IMG/VR virus record: IMGVR_UViG_3300027659_000124
Location: 1 to 32,769 of that record
Length of the DNA: 32,769 bases
Reading direction: 5' to 3' (one strand)
DNA from: a virus
The position numbers and the translations under genes were made by a program. The notes beneath the pieces are model-generated. The model made no database searches. It was not told the origin of the DNA and saw nothing but the letters and a program-made list of their open reading frames with translations. Positions 2,478 to 32,769 of this stretch are shown in pieces (positions within the stretch are counted from its first letter, which is position 1; every line of letters begins with the position of its first letter).

Positions 2478-6102
<3,625 letters not shown>

Positions 6103-10896: not shown

Positions 10897-12423
10897 ATGA
10901 GTTGCTACGATGAATGCGTTCCAGATTATCCTGTTTGTGATTGTGTTGACACCAGAGGTGCTACTGGAGCTACAGGCGTAGGATTTGTAGGAGCCACTGG
11001 TCTTACAGGAGCAACTGGTGCTGGAGCAACTGGCGCAAGCGGATCTGGCGCAACTGGAGCCACTGGCCCAGCTGGAATTGGAGTACAGGGAGCAATGGGG
11101 CCACAAGGAATACAAGGGCCACAAGGACAGGCTGGAACAAATGGTTCAACTGGAGCTACTGGAACAGAGGGAGCCACAGGAGCTACTGGTTATGGGGCAA
11201 CTGGCCCAGCTGGAACGTCTCCAGTATTAACTCGTCAAAGTTCTACAACCTTCCCTATTCAAGTAGGAACAAAAACATTTTTTTATACATCAGCAGATGT
11301 TGGATGGACTTATGGATCACGCATTCGCATTGTTGCTAATTCTGCATATCCTTTTGATTGGATGGAAGGCAATATCATTAATGTTGCTTCTAATTTTGTA
11401 ACCGTATATGTTGATAAAACTCAAGGTTCTGGAACATTTTCAGACTGGGTTATTGCATTAACTGGAGATGGAGGCATTGGAGCAACTGGTGCTAGTGGAG
11501 TTCAAGGTGCAACTGGTTCAACTGGGCCAGCAGGATCTACTGGAGCTGGAACTACTGGAGCAACTGGAGTTGATGGGCCAACAGGGCCACAGGGAGCAAC
11601 TGGAATTACTGGAGCCACTGGATCTGGAGCGACTGGAGCGACTGGAACTATTTTAAATTTTATTGGAGAATGGACAAGTGGATCATATGCAGCTAATACA
11701 GTTGCTGTTTCTCCAATTGATAGAAACACATATATTAGTCTAGTTGTAACATCAAATGTTAATATAGACCCCTCTTCTGATCCAACCGAATGGGAAATAT
11801 ATTCATATGGAGGCGCAACTGGAGCCACGGGATTAACTGGAGCCACTGGAGCTGGAATTACACTTAAAGGTACAGTTGCAGATATTGTAGATTTACCTCA
11901 AGTTGACAATGTAGTTGGAGATATTTATATTGTAACAAATGAAGATGGACATGGGTATATTTGGGATGGATCTTCTTGGAACGATGTTGGCCCAATTCAA
12001 GGGCCACAAGGGCCACAAGGTGCAACTGGAATACATGGATCTACTGGCATTGAAGGAGCAACTGGCGCAACTGGTTCTGGAGAAACTGGAGCAACTGGTT
12101 TAACTGGCATTGAAGGAGCAACTGGCATTGAAGGAGCAACTGGGCCACAAGGCGCAACTGGGTTACAAGGAGCTACTGGAGTTACGCCCCCATCAAATGC
12201 AGGAAATATTTGGACATTTACAGGGGATGGATCAACATTAACTTGGTCATTAACAGGAAATACATCTGGTAGTATTGTTTCTGCAAATTATTTAGCATCA
12301 ATTGATGGCATTTTACAATCTCCATTAAACTATACAATCAACAATGTTTCACCAAGAACACTAACAATTTCAACTGTTCCATCTGGAAGTTTCCTTGTTG
12401 TTGTATCTCTTTCTACAGCTTAA
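10897..12423 (+). CDS. second collagen-like fibre protein with carbohydrate-binding-like modules
   Basis: A 508-aa fibre. Its N-terminus is rich in cysteine ([16 protein letters not shown]: five Cys in 16 residues). Gly-X-Y blocks (mostly GAT) at about 22-108, 190-248, 303-318 and 365-430 alternate with small beta domains. One at about 249-302 ([17 protein letters not shown], later PTEWEIY) resembles CBM5/12-type carbohydrate-binding modules. Another (about 319-365) contains [20 protein letters not shown], a pattern common in phage fibres. The C-terminal domain ([13 protein letters not shown]) matches the domain at residues 533-603 of the first collagen gene. It probably forms a trimeric appendage. 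Confidence 0.8.
12041..12107 (+). repeat. second copy of the 67-bp collagen segment
   Basis: Matches 3224-3290 at 66 of 67 bases. Further shorter identical segments (for example around GATGGGCCAACAGGGCCACA) are also shared by the two fibre genes. Confidence 0.85.
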
Positions 12424-27476: not shown

Positions 27477-30400
27477 ATGGCTATTGATTTTATACCAACT
27501 GAAGAGGAACCTAAAAAGGAAGAAAAAGAACCATCTAAAAAAGAAATATCTTTTACTCCACAAAACGAAGAGGTTCAAGAAGAGGAAGAATCTTCTATGA
27601 CTGCTGGTGGAACTGCCTCCGCTGTTGTTCGTGGAGTTTCCCCTACCTTAGCTCAAGCCGGGACTGGTGCTTTGATGGGAGTTGGATTTGGGCCTCCCGG
27701 GATGGCTGTTGGTGCTGTTGGAGGTGTTATTTCTGGTCAATTAGCTGATCTTGCTATCTCTGGAATCAATTCTGCTTTTGGAACTCATTACTCAACAACA
27801 AAAGAAGCAGTAACTCATCTTCTTGATAAAATTGGTGTTCCTGAACCAACATCTTCTGGAGAAAAATTAACTGAAGCAATTACTGAAGGTGCTTCTGAAA
27901 TGTTTGGTGGAGCAAAAGCTGCTGGAACATTGTCTAAATTAATAAAACCAGAATCTATTCTTTCACTTCCAGAAAGACGCACTGCTGAAACAATTAAAAA
28001 AACAGCAACTTTTGTCGGTCAAAGACCAGTTGAACAAGCATTAATGGGCGGGGCTGCTGCTGGTGCTGGTGAAGCAGCTAAACAAAGTGATTATGGGCCA
28101 TTGGGACAAGCAGGATTCTCTTTGGCTGCTGGTACTGCTGTTCCCGTTGGAGGAGGTATTTTAAAAGGCGTAAGAACATTATTCCCTCCATCTCAAGCAA
28201 CAAGAGCAACTCAAGCCAGAGAACTCACTAAATCAACGCTCCAAGCATCTGTAATTGACAAAGAAAAAGCGGCTGCTGAGTTAGCAAAAGCGTCAGAGGT
28301 TAGTGGTGAAGGCGTTAATCTAATGTCTGGAGATATTACTGGAGATCCAAGGCTATTGCAGCTTCAAAAGAGTCTTAGATCAATTTCATCTGAAATGATG
28401 AAAAGAGACATTGAAAATGTTAAAGGTATTTCACAAAAGATTGGTAAAGGACTTGAAGAGACTGGTGCTGCACCAGAACAGACTCAAGCATATTTTAAAT
28501 CTAAACTAGACGATCTTCGTGCTCAGACAGAATCAATTGGAAAATTCGTTCAAGAGTCTGGTGATATTGAGGCTCAAAATGTATTTAATCAAGCATCAAA
28601 ATCAATTGCTGAAAATACTGCTCTCGCTGAAAGGGGAGTTATTACAACAGAAGAAGCATTAAAAACAGCTTCAGAAAAGCTATCAAATTCATTCTCTGAG
28701 TTATCCGCTCAAAAAAATGCAGTTATAAAAGACACATTAAGTTCTAATGTTGCTGATATTATTGGAAAACAAAGATCAGTAGAAAAAGCAAAAATTAACG
28801 ATCTTTATAGTAAAGCTGAAGGTGAAGTTACTCCATTTATTCAACGAAACACAATAGATTCAAAAGAAGGACTTGTTAAGGAATTTGGTGAAGAAAGACG
28901 ACTGCCACAAGAAGTTAAAAAGATACTTTCTGAGGTTGTTGATGCTGATGGAAATCCAGTTCCAAGAGAATTATCTCAATTAAGAGCCGACATAAAAGCT
29001 ATTAATTCTGAGATACGATCAGCACAATCAAGTGCAGCAAGGCAATCAGAAGTTCCTGCTTTAATTAGATTCAAAGAAGCATTGAATGCCGATATGGAAG
29101 ACCTTGGTGATGTAAGTGAAAATTTAAAAACTGCGAATCAAGCATATTATCAATATGCTCAAAGATACAAAGAAGGTGCTTCTGGAAAAGCATTCGGCCC
29201 TAAATCTGATGTAAATAAAGTTATTAACGAATACATTCCATCTGGAGTTAAGGCAGCTACCCCAATTGAAATTAAACGACTAAGAAGTGCCATTGAAGGC
29301 GATCCAACCATTCCTAAAACTCCAGAGATGGAGTCAGATGTTAAATCTGGAATAGATAATGTAAACCAATGGATTTATAGTTCAATGGCAGATTCTGTTG
29401 GAAAATCAAAAACATCTGAATCAATAAGAAGCTGGATTAATACTGGTGGAAAAAGAATTCTAAATGTATTTCCAGAAGCTAGAGCTAAAGTACATGACGA
29501 ATTAAATAAATTTGAACAACTTGAAGATGCCGTAAAACAAGCTAATAAAGGAATTAAAGAAGCGTCAGATGATAAAATACTTTCAGGTCAGAATGCAACT
29601 CAAGTAGAAAGAGAAGCTAATAATAGTTCAAAACTATTAATAAAACAAGCAGAGAAAGTAAAGAATGAATTGTTTGATGAATTTCAAACATCTATAAATC
29701 CAAAATCAAATCCAGCGGCAAGATTTGTGGGTGGTAATCCTTATGAAATTGTTGGCAAGGTAATGTCTGATAAAGTTAATCTTGAAAATAATGTTCAAAA
29801 CCTCGTTGCACAAGCAGCAATGGATGAAACAGGACAGGCTCAAGAGGGGCTTAAAAACGCATTCCGTGGTTGGCTTAACTCTAAAGAAGGAGTGCGAACA
29901 ACATCTAAATCAACTGTAGGAATAGGAGTTCAACAACCAACTATTCTAAATGAAGATTTGCAGGCAAGTTTAACAAAAATGCGTGATTTGTTAACTGAAG
30001 GAACCTCAACAAGAAATGCGCTTGATTCTGTTTTTGGAAAAGATTCTTATGAGTTATCTAACCTTGATAAAGCAAGGCAACAACTTGAAATTATTTCAAA
30101 AAAAGGTTCATCAGCTATAGCTGAATCTGTTCAAGTTGAAAAAATTGGTCAACCAAAAGGATCTCAAATTAATGATTCTTTATTGAGTCTTGCCGCAATT
30201 GGTGGTGCTGGAGTTAAGGGATACTTGGCATTTAAAACAGCAGATTTACTTAAACAAATTCAAAAAAAGTATAAAGAAGACACGCTTGTTTTGTTTAAAG
30301 ATATGCTTACTGATGCAATGCTTAACCCAGAGACTGCAAGGGTAATGTTGCTTGAGCCAACTAAACAAAATATGCCAGCAATTAACAGATTGCTTAGAAC

Positions 30401-30485
30401 ATTTGGAGTTGATCTGAAGGCTGAATCAACAACACAAAAAGAATCAGAAGAGCCATCATCAGAGATTCAATTTGAAGAACAATAA
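27477..30485 (+). CDS. large internal virion / DNA-ejection-like protein
   Basis: A 1002-aa protein. An acidic/Lys N-terminus (1-40) precedes a Gly/Ala hydrophobic segment at about 62-97 (ALMGVGFGPPGMAVGAVGG) and a second at about 187-230, either of which could insert into membranes. Residues 240-890 are mainly charged helices and coiled coils. A third hydrophobic stretch lies at about 902-925 (LSLAAIGGAGVKGYLAF), followed by an acidic tail ending EIQFEEQ. Such long helical proteins with glycine-rich hydrophobic pieces are typical of podoviral internal proteins that form the ejection tunnel. No enzymatic motif was recognised. Confidence 0.6.
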   Translation: MAIDFIPTEEEPKKEEKEPSKKEISFTPQNEEVQEEEESSMTAGGTASAVVRGVSPTLAQAGTGALMGVGFGPPGMAVGAVGGVISGQLADLAISGINSAFGTHYSTTKEAVTHLLDKIGVPEPTSSGEKLTEAITEGASEMFGGAKAAGTLSKLIKPESILSLPERRTAETIKKTATFVGQRPVEQALMGGAAAGAGEAAKQSDYGPLGQAGFSLAAGTAVPVGGGILKGVRTLFPPSQATRATQARELTKSTLQASVIDKEKAAAELAKASEVSGEGVNLMSGDITGDPRLLQLQKSLRSISSEMMKRDIENVKGISQKIGKGLEETGAAPEQTQAYFKSKLDDLRAQTESIGKFVQESGDIEAQNVFNQASKSIAENTALAERGVITTEEALKTASEKLSNSFSELSAQKNAVIKDTLSSNVADIIGKQRSVEKAKINDLYSKAEGEVTPFIQRNTIDSKEGLVKEFGEERRLPQEVKKILSEVVDADGNPVPRELSQLRADIKAINSEIRSAQSSAARQSEVPALIRFKEALNADMEDLGDVSENLKTANQAYYQYAQRYKEGASGKAFGPKSDVNKVINEYIPSGVKAATPIEIKRLRSAIEGDPTIPKTPEMESDVKSGIDNVNQWIYSSMADSVGKSKTSESIRSWINTGGKRILNVFPEARAKVHDELNKFEQLEDAVKQANKGIKEASDDKILSGQNATQVEREANNSSKLLIKQAEKVKNELFDEFQTSINPKSNPAARFVGGNPYEIVGKVMSDKVNLENNVQNLVAQAAMDETGQAQEGLKNAFRGWLNSKEGVRTTSKSTVGIGVQQPTILNEDLQASLTKMRDLLTEGTSTRNALDSVFGKDSYELSNLDKARQQLEIISKKGSSAIAESVQVEKIGQPKGSQINDSLLSLAAIGGAGVKGYLAFKTADLLKQIQKKYKEDTLVLFKDMLTDAMLNPETARVMLLEPTKQNMPAINRLLRTFGVDLKAESTTQKESEEPSSEIQFEEQ

Positions 30486-30493
30486 AAAATAAT

Positions 30494-30637
30494 ATGCCAC
30501 TAAGAAAATGCGCCTCACAAAATTGCTTTGACAGGAATGTTTCAGCAGAAGTAAAATCAGGTAAGCCTGTAAAACAAGCTGTTGCGATTGCATATAGCGT
30601 CCAACGTGAAGCTAAGAAAAAAGCTAAAAAGAAATAA
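30494..30637 (+). CDS. small basic protein (DUF6496-like pattern)
   Basis: ATG 30494 opens a 47-codon frame ending at TAA 30635-30637. The sequence pattern is MPLRKCASQNCFDRNVSAEV, then KSGKPVKQAVAIAYSV, then a Lys-rich tail. The G-[KR]-P-x-K-Q-A-V-A-I-A core matches a widespread family of short phage proteins of unknown function. The basic tail suggests nucleic-acid contact or packaging with DNA. The two cysteines are additional to the usual core. Its coding potential is strong despite the short length. Confidence 0.75.
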   Translation: MPLRKCASQNCFDRNVSAEVKSGKPVKQAVAIAYSVQREAKKKAKKK

Positions 30638-30652
30638 ATTTATTCGTTCAAT

Positions 30653-30745
30653 ATGAATCAAGGTGATTGGAGTATTTTGATAATGGCAATTGCGTCATTT
30701 ATTGGTGGTGGTATTTGCATTGGCATTGCTACTTGGTGGGAGTAA
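30653..30745 (+). CDS. 30-aa single-span membrane peptide
   Basis: ATG 30653 to TAA 30743-30745 encodes 30 residues. A short polar start (MNQGDWS) is followed by a hydrophobic, glycine-containing segment (ILIMAIASFIGGGICIGIA) and a TWWE end. One membrane span is predicted. A role is unknown; small phage membrane peptides of this kind may regulate lysis or envelope contact. Confidence 0.5.
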   Translation: MNQGDWSILIMAIASFIGGGICIGIATWWE

Positions 30746-30751
30746 AATTAG

Positions 30752-30779
30752 TTGACGAAAGTTTAGTAAATAATAGGTT
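30752..30779 (+). promoter_or_regulatory. weaker member of the TTGAC promoter group
   Basis: TTGACG (30752-30757), 16-base spacer, TAGGTT (30774-30779), ending seven bases before ATG 30786. The -10 match is modest. Position relative to the start codon resembles the other sites. Confidence 0.3.
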
Positions 30780-30785
30780 AAATAA

Positions 30786-31442
30786 ATGATCACGTTAAAG
30801 TCTGTCGATCCAGTATCCATGAGGTATGTGACTGCTGGCGACTGGGAATGGTTGCCTAATGGCGAGTTGAAATGTTCTGTTGCTGAGTACGGCAATGAAG
30901 ATGGAGAGTTTTTAGTTAATCTTCATAAAATGGTGGAGGGTTGGTTATGCCGTAAAGCTGGAATCCGCGAGGATGAGGTATCTGCGTTTCATATTTCAAA
31001 TCCAGAGGCTCCACATCACAAACAGAACCAAACTGCCACAGAGGTAGAAAAGATCGTCTGTGAGGCAATGTCGATTGATTGGGAGGCACACAAAGAGTGG
31101 GTTCAACGTGCAAGTGACGAGGTGGAAGAAAAATCATTCCATGAAGTTCCATCAATCCTTATTAATGGGCCTAGATTCTGGGCTGAATTGCATTTGTTAG
31201 GAGTTCGACACAGGCAGGGAAAAAACATGACAGGATGGCTTAATGATTGGCGTGATTCCATTCCATTCAATGGATGTCCATGCAAAGAACATCTTGATAA
31301 TTGGTTTTCAGAAAATCCTCCTGATTGGAATCGTTTTTTTGAATGGGGAATTGATTTGCACAATGCAGTAAACTTGCGTATTGGAAAGCCTACTATGGAT
31401 GTTGAGAACGCAAAGGAATTGTGGATGCAAAAACATTTTTAA
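30786..31442 (+). CDS. fusion protein with ERV/ALR-like sulfhydryl-oxidase C-terminus
   Basis: A 218-aa protein in two parts. Residues 1-105 resemble a phage domain that usually carries an HExxE-type site; here the positions read LHKMVE, with Lys in place of the first Glu. The pattern PEAPHHKQNQTATEVEK and MSIDWEAH also fits it. Residues 130-212 resemble ERV/ALR-type FAD sulfhydryl oxidases: FWAELHLLG, then IPFNGCPCKEHL (Cys164 and Cys166), then FFEWGIDLHNAVNLRIGKP with the LHNxVN element. The usual CxxC is replaced by CPC, so redox activity is likely but not certain. It may make disulphides in virion proteins. Alternative: a structural relic of the fold. Confidence 0.6.
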   Translation: MITLKSVDPVSMRYVTAGDWEWLPNGELKCSVAEYGNEDGEFLVNLHKMVEGWLCRKAGIREDEVSAFHISNPEAPHHKQNQTATEVEKIVCEAMSIDWEAHKEWVQRASDEVEEKSFHEVPSILINGPRFWAELHLLGVRHRQGKNMTGWLNDWRDSIPFNGCPCKEHLDNWFSENPPDWNRFFEWGIDLHNAVNLRIGKPTMDVENAKELWMQKHF

Positions 31443-31449
31443 AAAAGTG

Positions 31450-31477
31450 TTGCAAGTTTTAAAATAAACTATATATT
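31450..31477 (+). promoter_or_regulatory. candidate promoter before the terminator/iteron region
   Basis: TTGCAA (31450-31455), 16-base spacer, TATATT (31472-31477). If used, it would make a transcript of only about 50 bases ending at the terminator 31503-31535, so it could drive a small RNA. Both boxes are imperfect. Confidence 0.3.
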
Positions 31478-31502
31478 TCCATTAGTTTCTTCACCGAACT
31501 GT

Positions 31503-31535
31503 AGCCTGTGTTAGCGCACAGGCTTTTTCGTTTTT
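31503..31535 (+). terminator. rho-independent terminator
   Basis: AGCCTGTG (31503-31510) pairs perfectly with CACAGGCT (31517-31524) around a 6-base loop and is followed by TTTTTCGTTTTT. This is the clearest terminator in the window and ends the late transcript after the ERV/ALR-like gene. Confidence 0.85.
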
Positions 31536-31536
31536 A

Positions 31537-31596
31537 AGTTCGGTGTAAAGTTCGGTGAAAACGCTGGTGAAAAGTACGGTGTAAACGCCGGTGAAA
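31537..31596 (+). repeat. five exact 12-bp tandem iterons, with an inverted copy upstream
   Basis: Units begin at 31537, 31549, 31561, 31573 and 31585 and follow the form A[GC]NNNGGTG[TA]AA, for example AGTTCGGTGTAA and AGTTCGGTGAAA. There is no gap between units. TTCACCGAACT at 31490-31500, before the terminator hairpin, is the exact reverse complement of the first 11 bases of unit two. The block lies in the 218-base gap between genes (31443-31660). It may be a protein-binding iteron array (replication or repression), or an RNA structure in which the upstream arm pairs with unit one or two. One frame across the units stays open (FGVKFGENAGEKYGVNAGEK) but has no start codon. Confidence 0.85.
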
Positions 31597-31638
31597 AACA
31601 CTTTGCATTTTTGATCTGAACGTATAAATTCACGCAAT

Positions 31639-31649
31639 CGTTAATAACG
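31639..31649. promoter_or_regulatory. perfect 11-base dyad before the small-gene run
   Basis: CGTTAATAACG is a palindrome about its central A, lying between a TATAAA at 31623-31628 and the start codon at 31661. The placement fits an operator over a promoter. No -35 box at normal spacing goes with the TATAAA. Confidence 0.4.
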
Positions 31650-31660
31650 ATAATAAATAT

Positions 31661-31897
31661 ATGGATACTTTACAGATTAAACCTAAAAAAACATTAAGTA
31701 AGAAAAGCCTCTACTCTGCTGGAAGTTTAACAACTTCTGGAACTACAGATGAACGGGACATTTGGTTAATTAACTTAGCAGCGCAATTTGATCGTGCTTG
31801 CGATTACTTCTGGACAAAAACTCCAGAAAGACGAAAAGTTCAAGCCGAATTCAAAAAGAATTGCAGTTATATTAATAATAGATATGCGAGTAAATAA
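31661..31897 (+). CDS. small hypothetical protein
   Basis: A 78-aa protein starting MDTLQIKPKKTLSKK, followed by a Ser/Thr-rich linker and a helical domain (DIWLINLAAQFDRACDYFW, then ERRKVQAEFKKN). It is the first gene after the terminator and iteron block and probably starts a separate transcript. No family is recognised. Its end overlaps the next gene by 14 bases. Confidence 0.55.
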   Translation: MDTLQIKPKKTLSKKSLYSAGSLTTSGTTDERDIWLINLAAQFDRACDYFWTKTPERRKVQAEFKKNCSYINNRYASK

Positions 31898-32120
31898 TCA
31901 TCCAGCATTTCCAGTCACGGCATACCCCGGTGACCAACATAGTCCCAAGGTGCGACCTAACTCTGGAATGGGAATGCGCGATTGGTTCGCAGGACGAGCA
32001 CTAGAAGGAATTCTTGCAAATCCAGAAGAACTAGCTATGGAAGCACCTCCTGAAGACATTGCTCGTATCGCATTTAAATTTGCAGACGCAATGCTAACAG
32101 AAAGAGAAAACCACCAATGA
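31884..32120 (+). CDS. small phage protein with GMxxRDWFAGRAL motif
   Basis: The start ATG 31884 (MRVNNHPAFPVTAYPGDQ) is preferred over an upstream ATG at 31788 that would run through the previous gene. The 78-aa product has the pattern PAFPV, then GMGMRDWFAGRALEGILAN and IARIAFKFADAML, which is common in short proteins of many phages (G-M-[ST]-x-R-[DE]-[YW]-F-A-x-[RK]-A). Their function is unknown. It shares an ATGA junction with the next gene. Confidence 0.7.
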   Translation: MRVNNHPAFPVTAYPGDQHSPKVRPNSGMGMRDWFAGRALEGILANPEELAMEAPPEDIARIAFKFADAMLTERENHQ

Positions 32121-32260
32121 AAAGCCAAACATCAGCCAGCTTGAAATTTGGATCTCCTATGATCATTTCAAGTGCAGTAACAAAACCACAAAAAACAAAC
32201 ATTCGTGTATCTATGCCTAAAGCAAAAGCAAAGATGCCAAAACTAACAAAGAAGAAATAA
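32117..32260 (+). CDS. small basic hypothetical protein
   Basis: ATG 32117, overlapping the previous stop, opens a 47-codon frame to TAA 32258-32260. The product starts MKSQTSASLKFGSPM and ends in a run of Lys, Ala and Met (KAKAKMPKLTKKK), giving a strongly basic C-terminus. It may bind nucleic acid. No family is recognised. Support comes from tight overlap with its neighbours. Confidence 0.5.
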   Translation: MKSQTSASLKFGSPMIISSAVTKPQKTNIRVSMPKAKAKMPKLTKKK

Positions 32261-32262
32261 AT

Positions 32263-32478
32263 ATGAGCGAAGAAAAAGAACTTGTAGGATTCGGTGAAGA
32301 CCAACAAAAAGCCATTGACCACGCAATCAAGGGAATTGAAATTGACGCAATCAGCAAAGATGAAGTCTTTCTTGATTTCATTGGCCGATTGAAACGCTTT
32401 AACTTTGAATGTTCCGTTGCATTGCATCTCCTCGAAAAGAAGACGCTTGCAGACATGGCTGAAAAAGCTAAAGAATGA
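32263..32478 (+). CDS. small acidic helical hypothetical protein
   Basis: A 71-aa protein with a Glu-rich start (MSEEKELVGFGEDQ) and mostly helical sequence (DHAIKGIEIDAISKDEVFLD, then ALHLLEKKTLADM). It starts two bases after the previous stop at AATAAATATG and overlaps the next gene by four bases (ATGA). No family recognised. Confidence 0.55.
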   Translation: MSEEKELVGFGEDQQKAIDHAIKGIEIDAISKDEVFLDFIGRLKRFNFECSVALHLLEKKTLADMAEKAKE

Positions 32479-32720
32479 GTATTATTAGTGACCATGCACA
32501 TGACTCCCATGACATGGGTGGAAGCTGCAAGTCTTGTGGGGTTGATTGGATTGATCACATGGGCGTTCAATCAACTTGCTCAAAATTACAACAAGCAAAC
32601 GAGCTTTTACTAATGGCTTTGAGCTATGTTAAGCAACCAGAGTATTCAAGAGACATTGGCGAGCAGGAAATGTATTTTGACTTCCGAAAAGCAGTAGAAA
32701 AGTTTTATGGAAAACATTAA
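32475..32720 (+). CDS. small hypothetical protein with CxxC and His-rich start
   Basis: An 81-aa protein. Residues 6-12 (DHAHDSHD) are rich in His and Asp, and CKSC at 18-21 with a further Cys34 could bind a metal. The C-terminal half is helical (ANELLLMALSYV). It overlaps the genes on both sides. The family is not recognised. Confidence 0.55.
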   Translation: MSIISDHAHDSHDMGGSCKSCGVDWIDHMGVQSTCSKLQQANELLLMALSYVKQPEYSRDIGEQEMYFDFRKAVEKFYGKH

Positions 32721-32769
32721 GAAGTCTGAGTGGTCTGGACAGGCTGGTAAAGGCGATGAAGAACGTCCA
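32707..32769 (+). CDS. 5' end of another small gene (partial)
   Basis: ATG 32707 starts inside the previous gene and the frame is open to the window end (21 codons: MENIKKSEWSGQAGKGDEER and on). The G-K-G-D-x-x-R-P piece resembles the start of short phage proteins that follow it with an aromatic-rich helix, but too little is present to be sure. Confidence 0.5.
   Translation, partial: MENIKKSEWSGQAGKGDEERP

Follow-up and report, generated by a model that had tools for sequence, protein, structure and literature searches.

A 12-bp direct-repeat array beside a phage promoter shares its unit with the linkers of winged-helix genes

Introduction

Direct repeats placed near one helical turn apart are found in the replication iterons of plasmids and phages and in the 12-mers of the RctB type, and direct repeats abutting a promoter constitute the tandem operator sites of bacterial repressors. 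The subject of the present work is an array of 12-bp units in a virus fragment of 32,769 bases (the window, i.e. the whole stretch of DNA analysed). It differs from the replication repeats in having no adjacent initiator gene and in being absent from most relatives; from the tandem operators it differs in that no repressor gene was identified near it and in its unusually fast change of copy number. The unit AAGTTCGGTGWA, the 12-bp pitch and the small number of copies are shared, instead, with the linkers of Schlafen/AlbA_2-HATPase_c_4-wHTH and Fic-wHTH proteins (PF04326, PF13749, PF02661, PF13412); in these genes, however, the array lies within the coding frame, directly before a C-terminal winged helix, whereas in the phage it is non-coding, is placed at a promoter and is followed by no winged helix. 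A second phage family (loci L060, L061 and L062) carries three copies of the same unit in the gap from a stop codon to a start codon, but there the array and the gene behind it run in opposite directions, with 15 bp up to the ATG of that gene, the unit number is constant across the three loci, and no cassette of promoter (P1) and terminator like that of the window was seen.

The DNA and peptide strings of the repeat occur in no paper of the open-licence part of PubMed Central, and the accessible parts of the literature on intragenic repeats and winged helices, on Schlafen/AlbA/HATPase proteins and on 12-bp phage operators hold nothing on point.

Architecture of the array and its surroundings

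The original prediction, of five gapless 12-bp units with 12-bp periodicity over 60 bases, was confirmed within the window (Table 1). The units vary in sequence, with matches at 34 of the 48 positions compared at lag 12; when the intergenic region was shuffled 2000 times under a dinucleotide model, no shuffle scored as high at any lag from 9 to 15. The predicted inverted arm is likewise real, being an exact 11-bp inverted copy of 31549-31559 (equalled in 11 of 5000 shuffled flanks), and the terminator was found where it had been placed, between the arm and the array; folding of 31484-31531 gives a z of -4.0, and this is the sole terminator-like site in 30400-32769 (shuffle mean 1.6). The array is non-coding: in the frame that crosses the units a start codon is lacking, since a TAG at 31512-31514 is followed by no ATG, GTG or TTG ahead of them. 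In Rfam the sole match, CRISPR-DR10 at 32305-32342, is below threshold (26.1 bits, gathering 39). The motif GTWCGGTGWA has no further occurrence in the record of the window; a 9-base version, TTCGGTGAA, stands isolated at 32290-32298 inside a small coding ORF, 27 bases past its start; it agrees with the arm over 9 bp, which may be chance or may mark a target of the P1 RNA.

Table 1. Positions of the array and of the elements around it, in window coordinates
Feature	Position	Strand	Description
Erv1/Alr-like gene (sulfhydryl oxidase family)	30786..31442	+	218 aa; PF04777, 33.9 bits, cut-off 27.6
P1, promoter-like	31450..31477	+	TTGCAA - 16 nt - TATATT; 9/12 to consensus
Arm	31490..31500	-	TTCACCGAACT, inverted unit copy (AGTTCGGTGAA on minus strand); just inside predicted P1 transcript
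Intrinsic terminator	31503..31530	+	Stem 31503-31524, 9 pairs, then T run
Array of five 12-bp units	31536..31595	+	Gapless; also reported by Tandem Repeats Finder
Unit 1	start 31536		AAGTTCGGTGTA
Unit 2	start 31548		AAGTTCGGTGAA
Unit 3	start 31560		AACGCTGGTGAA
Unit 4	start 31572		AAGTACGGTGTA
Unit 5	start 31584		AACGCCGGTGAA
P2, promoter-like	31603..31630	+	TTGCAT - 16 nt - TAAATT; 7 bp from last unit to -35
Leader hairpin	31637..31651	+	ATCGTT-AAT-AACGAT; just 5' of start codon
ORF, first gene after P2	31661..31897	+	78 aa; no PHROG or Pfam match

The array is flanked by two promoter-like sites of one class (TTGCAW-N16-TANATT), known here as consensus matches only; the pattern TTGC[AT][AT]-N16-TA.ATT has two matches in the window (0.25 expected) and only two in the 62.8-kb relative G003 (0.7 expected), in both cases P1 and P2. 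P1 points into the arm and the terminator, and the putative transcript would be an untranslated RNA of about 45-50 nt. The P2 block is kept in relatives with and without the array, as is the leader hairpin, which shows a compensatory change (TCGTC..GACGA in L016, TCGTT..AACGA in the window). The ORF that follows has relatives and opens a run of small ORFs to the right of the array. The Erv1/Alr-like gene forms the left border of the region and is not part of the array. Its product carries a CPC motif and has 29 related viral loci; the literature on phage Erv1, in the parts accessible, is mainly giant-virus, baculovirus and expression-strain work.

The array in related phages

Relatives were found via the upstream gene (15 loci and 14 more distant ones). 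The number of readable downstream regions, window included, is 29, with L289 left out (it ends 29 bases past the gene); L288/L297 and L289/L296 are pairs from two contigs, and L018 was left out of alignment A2. The array is present in six of these 29 regions, with five units in the window, seven in L012, three in L013, two in L014, five in L015 and three, the middle one degenerate, in L018; it is a clade-specific gain. The most distant relatives have no array, their next gene beginning within about 20 bases. No full-length gene runs across the units in any relative read, and relatives devoid of the array have an Erv1-like protein with the same end point. Among GenBank phages, neither nucleotide relatives of 31200-31900 nor a tblastn relative of the 703-aa protein were found.

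In all six phages with the array the distance to the -35 of P2 is 7 bp, i.e. the array holds the fixed position that an operator array would have at its promoter, the promoter being a consensus match. The flanks of L012-L015 are 91-99% identical to those of the window; those of L012 in particular are 98-99% identical, and nevertheless unit number and unit sequence differ, so that the array changes faster than its surroundings. L012 has five identical AAGTACGGTGAA units, as if homogenised; the 5' units of L012 and L015 read GTACGG, with the arm still GTTCGG, and the last units of the window, L012 and L015 diverge further. The arm is present in the window and in L012-L015 and absent from L018, which also lacks P1 and the terminator and has its array directly 3' of the stop codon. 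The flanking stretches of window and L018 are 80-86% identical; between L013 and L018, a comparison weak on its own, the array is 32/35 identical and the leader 52/68. Free drift of the units in relatives, which the original prediction had named as evidence against itself, is thus seen in part: number and sequence change rapidly among close relatives, yet L018 and unrelated phages have AAGTTCGGTGAA as an unaltered unit.

As a minor observation, the Erv1-like gene of L018 (5001-5681) contains one in-frame stop after residue 61.

The unit in winged-helix genes of bacteria and archaea

GTDB genomes were scanned for two units in a row (AAGTTCGGTGWAAAGTTCGGTGWA), and the pair (AAGTTCGGTGWA)x2 was found in 70 stretches from many bacterial and archaeal phyla; the chance expectation is about 0.01 at equal base frequencies, although the assumption of independent bases understates tandem repeats. 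By longest frame, 36 of the stretches encode KFGE/KFGV and 34 SSVK, the third frame being blocked by TGA in units ending GGTGAA, and both frames are mixed in some linkers (L182, L184 and L223); the use of two reading frames points to the DNA, not the peptide, as the common element. Of the encoded proteins, 67 of 70 match a winged-helix profile, the domain beginning 1-28 residues past the repeat in 65, and the ten carriers scanned comprise eight Schlafen AlbA_2 + HATPase_c_4 proteins and two Fic proteins.

To avoid choosing by the DNA repeat, a second sample was collected by searching the winged-helix domain itself, with one sequence as query in Bacteroidota (15/148) and with profile A1 in the phylum of the Geobacteraceae carrier (31 of 198 genomes), in that of the Spirochaetes carrier (34 of 198) and in Bacteroidota (51 of 296); this sample still leans towards repeat carriers, because A1 was made from ten domains, mostly those of carriers. 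After removal of weak, short or more than 85% identical entries, 95 of 107 linkers were used. The best period before the domain is 12 in 47 of them, 24 in five, 11 in six, 18 and 21 in one each, and none in 35, so that arrays of 11 or 12 bp (24 included) lie 5' of the winged helix in 58 of the 95 genes and those of 12 or 24 bp in 52; control windows elsewhere in the same genes passed in 0 of 212 cases. Since 11 is not a multiple of three, the 11-bp arrays cycle through all the frames, as is the case for the coding repeats before the winged helix of L199, L202, L214, L237, L265 and L166.

The peptide is not conserved, and the 11-12 bp repetition of the DNA is: single-change codons between adjacent units are 20 synonymous versus 107 non-synonymous, and adjacent imperfect 12-bp units (113 pairs) differ at codon positions 1, 2 and 3 in 86, 96 and 65 cases, respectively. 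Two further observations bear on the same question. AAA occurs in 58 of 66 cellular arrays and TTT in none, as would be expected if the linker need only be hydrophilic, and this counts against a pure DNA role. A second copy within the locus (about 8 kb or less) was found for four of 146 cellular arrays, so that nothing points to a matching operator at the promoters of the genes concerned; the three of these loci that were read are a decayed fragment or a gene end, and the fourth, L106, has a second unit pair 1.6 kb off. A codon-usage test with the degenerate KFG[EV]x2 matched one of 395 Bacteroidota genomes, namely the one used as centre, and the SSVK pattern proved too loose, its backward control matching at a similar rate. 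A tblastn search of the window and of the related phage loci, the 62.8-kb record included, found no winged helix of this type.

On plasmids, the consensus query retrieved two genes, annotated as ATP-binding protein (Emticicia) and as RNA-binding domain-containing protein (Arcobacter). In L118 (354-731), a short protein consists of an N-terminal part, presumably similar to an HsdM-type N-terminus, joined to a KFGV repeat and a winged helix, which suggests that repeat and winged helix move as a module.

The unit in other phages

When viral contigs were scanned with a looser two-unit pattern, 13 stretches came up: four from the present family, three intergenic (L060-L062) and six others (L058, L059, L063-L066) lying in frames 73 to 345 codons long, some of which may not be genes. 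L060 and L062 belong to an unrelated phage family, and their three units are 36/36 identical with flanks of 77.5% and 67%; the identity extends over a further 18 bp, up to and including the ATG, to give 54/54, in what is one pair of contigs, L061 being identical to L060 over the compared stretch. This identity is the best sign of selection on the unit, as DNA or RNA, in phages; the L013/L018 comparison gives a weaker sign of this kind, and the drift in L012 and L015 runs against it. No nucleotide relatives of L060:1-1400 were found among GenBank phages, and BLAST with the array alone gave short matches only, the best E being 1e-2 in phages and 2e-3 with a four-unit consensus.

Possible functions of the array

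The reading that we favour, with a probability of roughly 0.4, is that a winged-helix regulator binds the array as a set of DNA sites and so acts on P2. The units would be a cluster of putative binding sites, i.e. a direct-repeat operator of 12-bp pitch and core GTTCGGTGAA set against P2; the arm, where the short P1 transcript begins, would be one more site, inverted. The likely binder would be a winged-helix DNA-binding protein of the type that Schlafen/AlbA_2-HATPase_c_4 and Fic proteins carry C-terminally; it is presumably encoded by the host, since none was found in the phage sequence examined. Binding may repress the small genes that follow 31661 or tune their transcription, and the copy number, changing fast presumably by replication slippage, may tune its strength. 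Protein binding, the winged helix as binder and the effect on P2 are what we infer from the constant 7-bp placement, the unit pair in the GTDB stretches and the L060/L062 identity; the lack of a winged helix in the phages, the rarity of second copies in cellular loci, the drift to GTACGG, a turnover faster than that of the flanks and the existence of reversed-core arrays in viral contigs speak against them.

Among the options of the original prediction, a site array for a protein fares best, in the operator-like form at a promoter and not as a replication or partition site. In G003 the place of the array is at the end of a rightward structural block, converging with a leftward block that holds a DnaB-type helicase, and is apparently not in or beside an origin or an initiator gene; moreover, a site needed for replication should be kept in relatives, most of which have no array. 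Replication iterons were thus rejected.

The main rival, only somewhat less probable, is that the array has no function, being a slippage minisatellite tolerated in a non-coding gap, as the cellular linkers would tolerate hydrophilic, frame-neutral units. The changing unit number between nearly identical flanks, the homogenised units of L012, the absence from 23 of the 29 readable regions and the excess of AAA over TTT are what such a repeat would be expected to give, and arrays of the reversed core exist too. Slippage does not explain why unrelated phages share this unit, why winged-helix genes contain it in two frames, or the 54/54 identity and the 11-bp arrays in coding DNA.

More speculative than either, and in our view doubtful, is a generalisation of the binding-site reading, by which a winged-helix family of bacteria and archaea (Schlafen/AlbA_2, Fic; plausibly defence-linked) would recognise tandem sites of 11-12 bp and carry them in its own genes, directly 5' of the part that encodes the DNA-binding domain, and phages from different families would carry them at gene starts as operators or decoys for these proteins of the host. 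If this holds, the repeat is a DNA code read across phyla, for which coding DNA offers whatever frame happens to be open. If the unit is a binding site, it provides a testable target, together with a candidate binder, for the large and poorly understood group of Schlafen/AlbA_2 and Fic regulators, and it is one that phages use or abuse. Even with slippage only, this would be unusual coding DNA that retains the repeat and not the protein, with arrays of 11 and 12 bp that use different frames yet hold a single position within one protein family, and an unconstrained peptide.

A decayed coding repeat had also been proposed, and in its simple form it failed, there being no start codon and no full-length gene in the relatives read; the open frame behind it was, on the other hand, a real lead, since the same DNA unit is coding (KFGV/KFGE) in winged-helix genes. 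That the array is what remains of a winged-helix gene's linker, the gene having been lost, or of a lost C-terminal extension of the Erv1-like protein, is very unlikely: the frame KFGV-KFGE-NAGE-KYGV-NAGE is open through the units, the array of L018 adjoins a stop codon, and L099 holds a decayed winged-helix fragment with such units downstream of a gene; but no winged-helix sequence lies 3' of the array, and the end of the Erv1-like protein is the same where the array is absent.

Still harder to credit is an array of phased A-tracts, in which AAA or AAAA every 12 bp would bend the DNA or serve as an upstream element of P2 with no specific binder. AAA or more does stand at each unit junction, right upstream of the -35, and is frequent in the cellular arrays; however, 12 bp is off the helical pitch, the coding strand of the 66 cellular arrays has AAA and never TTT, whereas bending is strand-neutral, and the conserved GTTCGGTG part is left unexplained.

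Least probable of all is an RNA element, in which the short P1 RNA would pair with units in read-through RNA or in other messages: P1, arm and terminator do make a compact unit and the arm pairs with a unit in the predicted fold (z -3.1), but the units of L012 and L015 no longer match the arm perfectly, the arm not having followed, and L018 has its array in the absence of the whole cassette. The proposed switch, with the arm competing with the terminator, was not borne out either, since the predicted fold of 31480-31620 holds both the terminator and the arm-unit helix, which is nested outside the hairpin, and not two mutually exclusive structures.

Other repeats in the window and in viral contigs

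A generic GGTGWAAA core, common to all phage arrays, was considered and dropped, since it gave 29 viral stretches against nine for the reversed core and most of the stretches read were coding repeats (NEGVN and similar); that the reversed core still gives nine implies that 12-bp arrays as such are not rare. In different phage proteins (L003, L006, L010, L011, L138, L141, L145 and L151), (N[E/D]GV)n is encoded by GGTGTAAATGAK repeats. The window itself contains long collagen-like coding repeats in tail genes (2482-6102 and 10897-12423). Finally, on the minus strand of L137 (about 4700-5000), GGTGTAAATGAT is repeated three times directly after a terminator-like hairpin, in a layout like that of the window with a different unit, ahead of what are, by appearance, tRNA genes.
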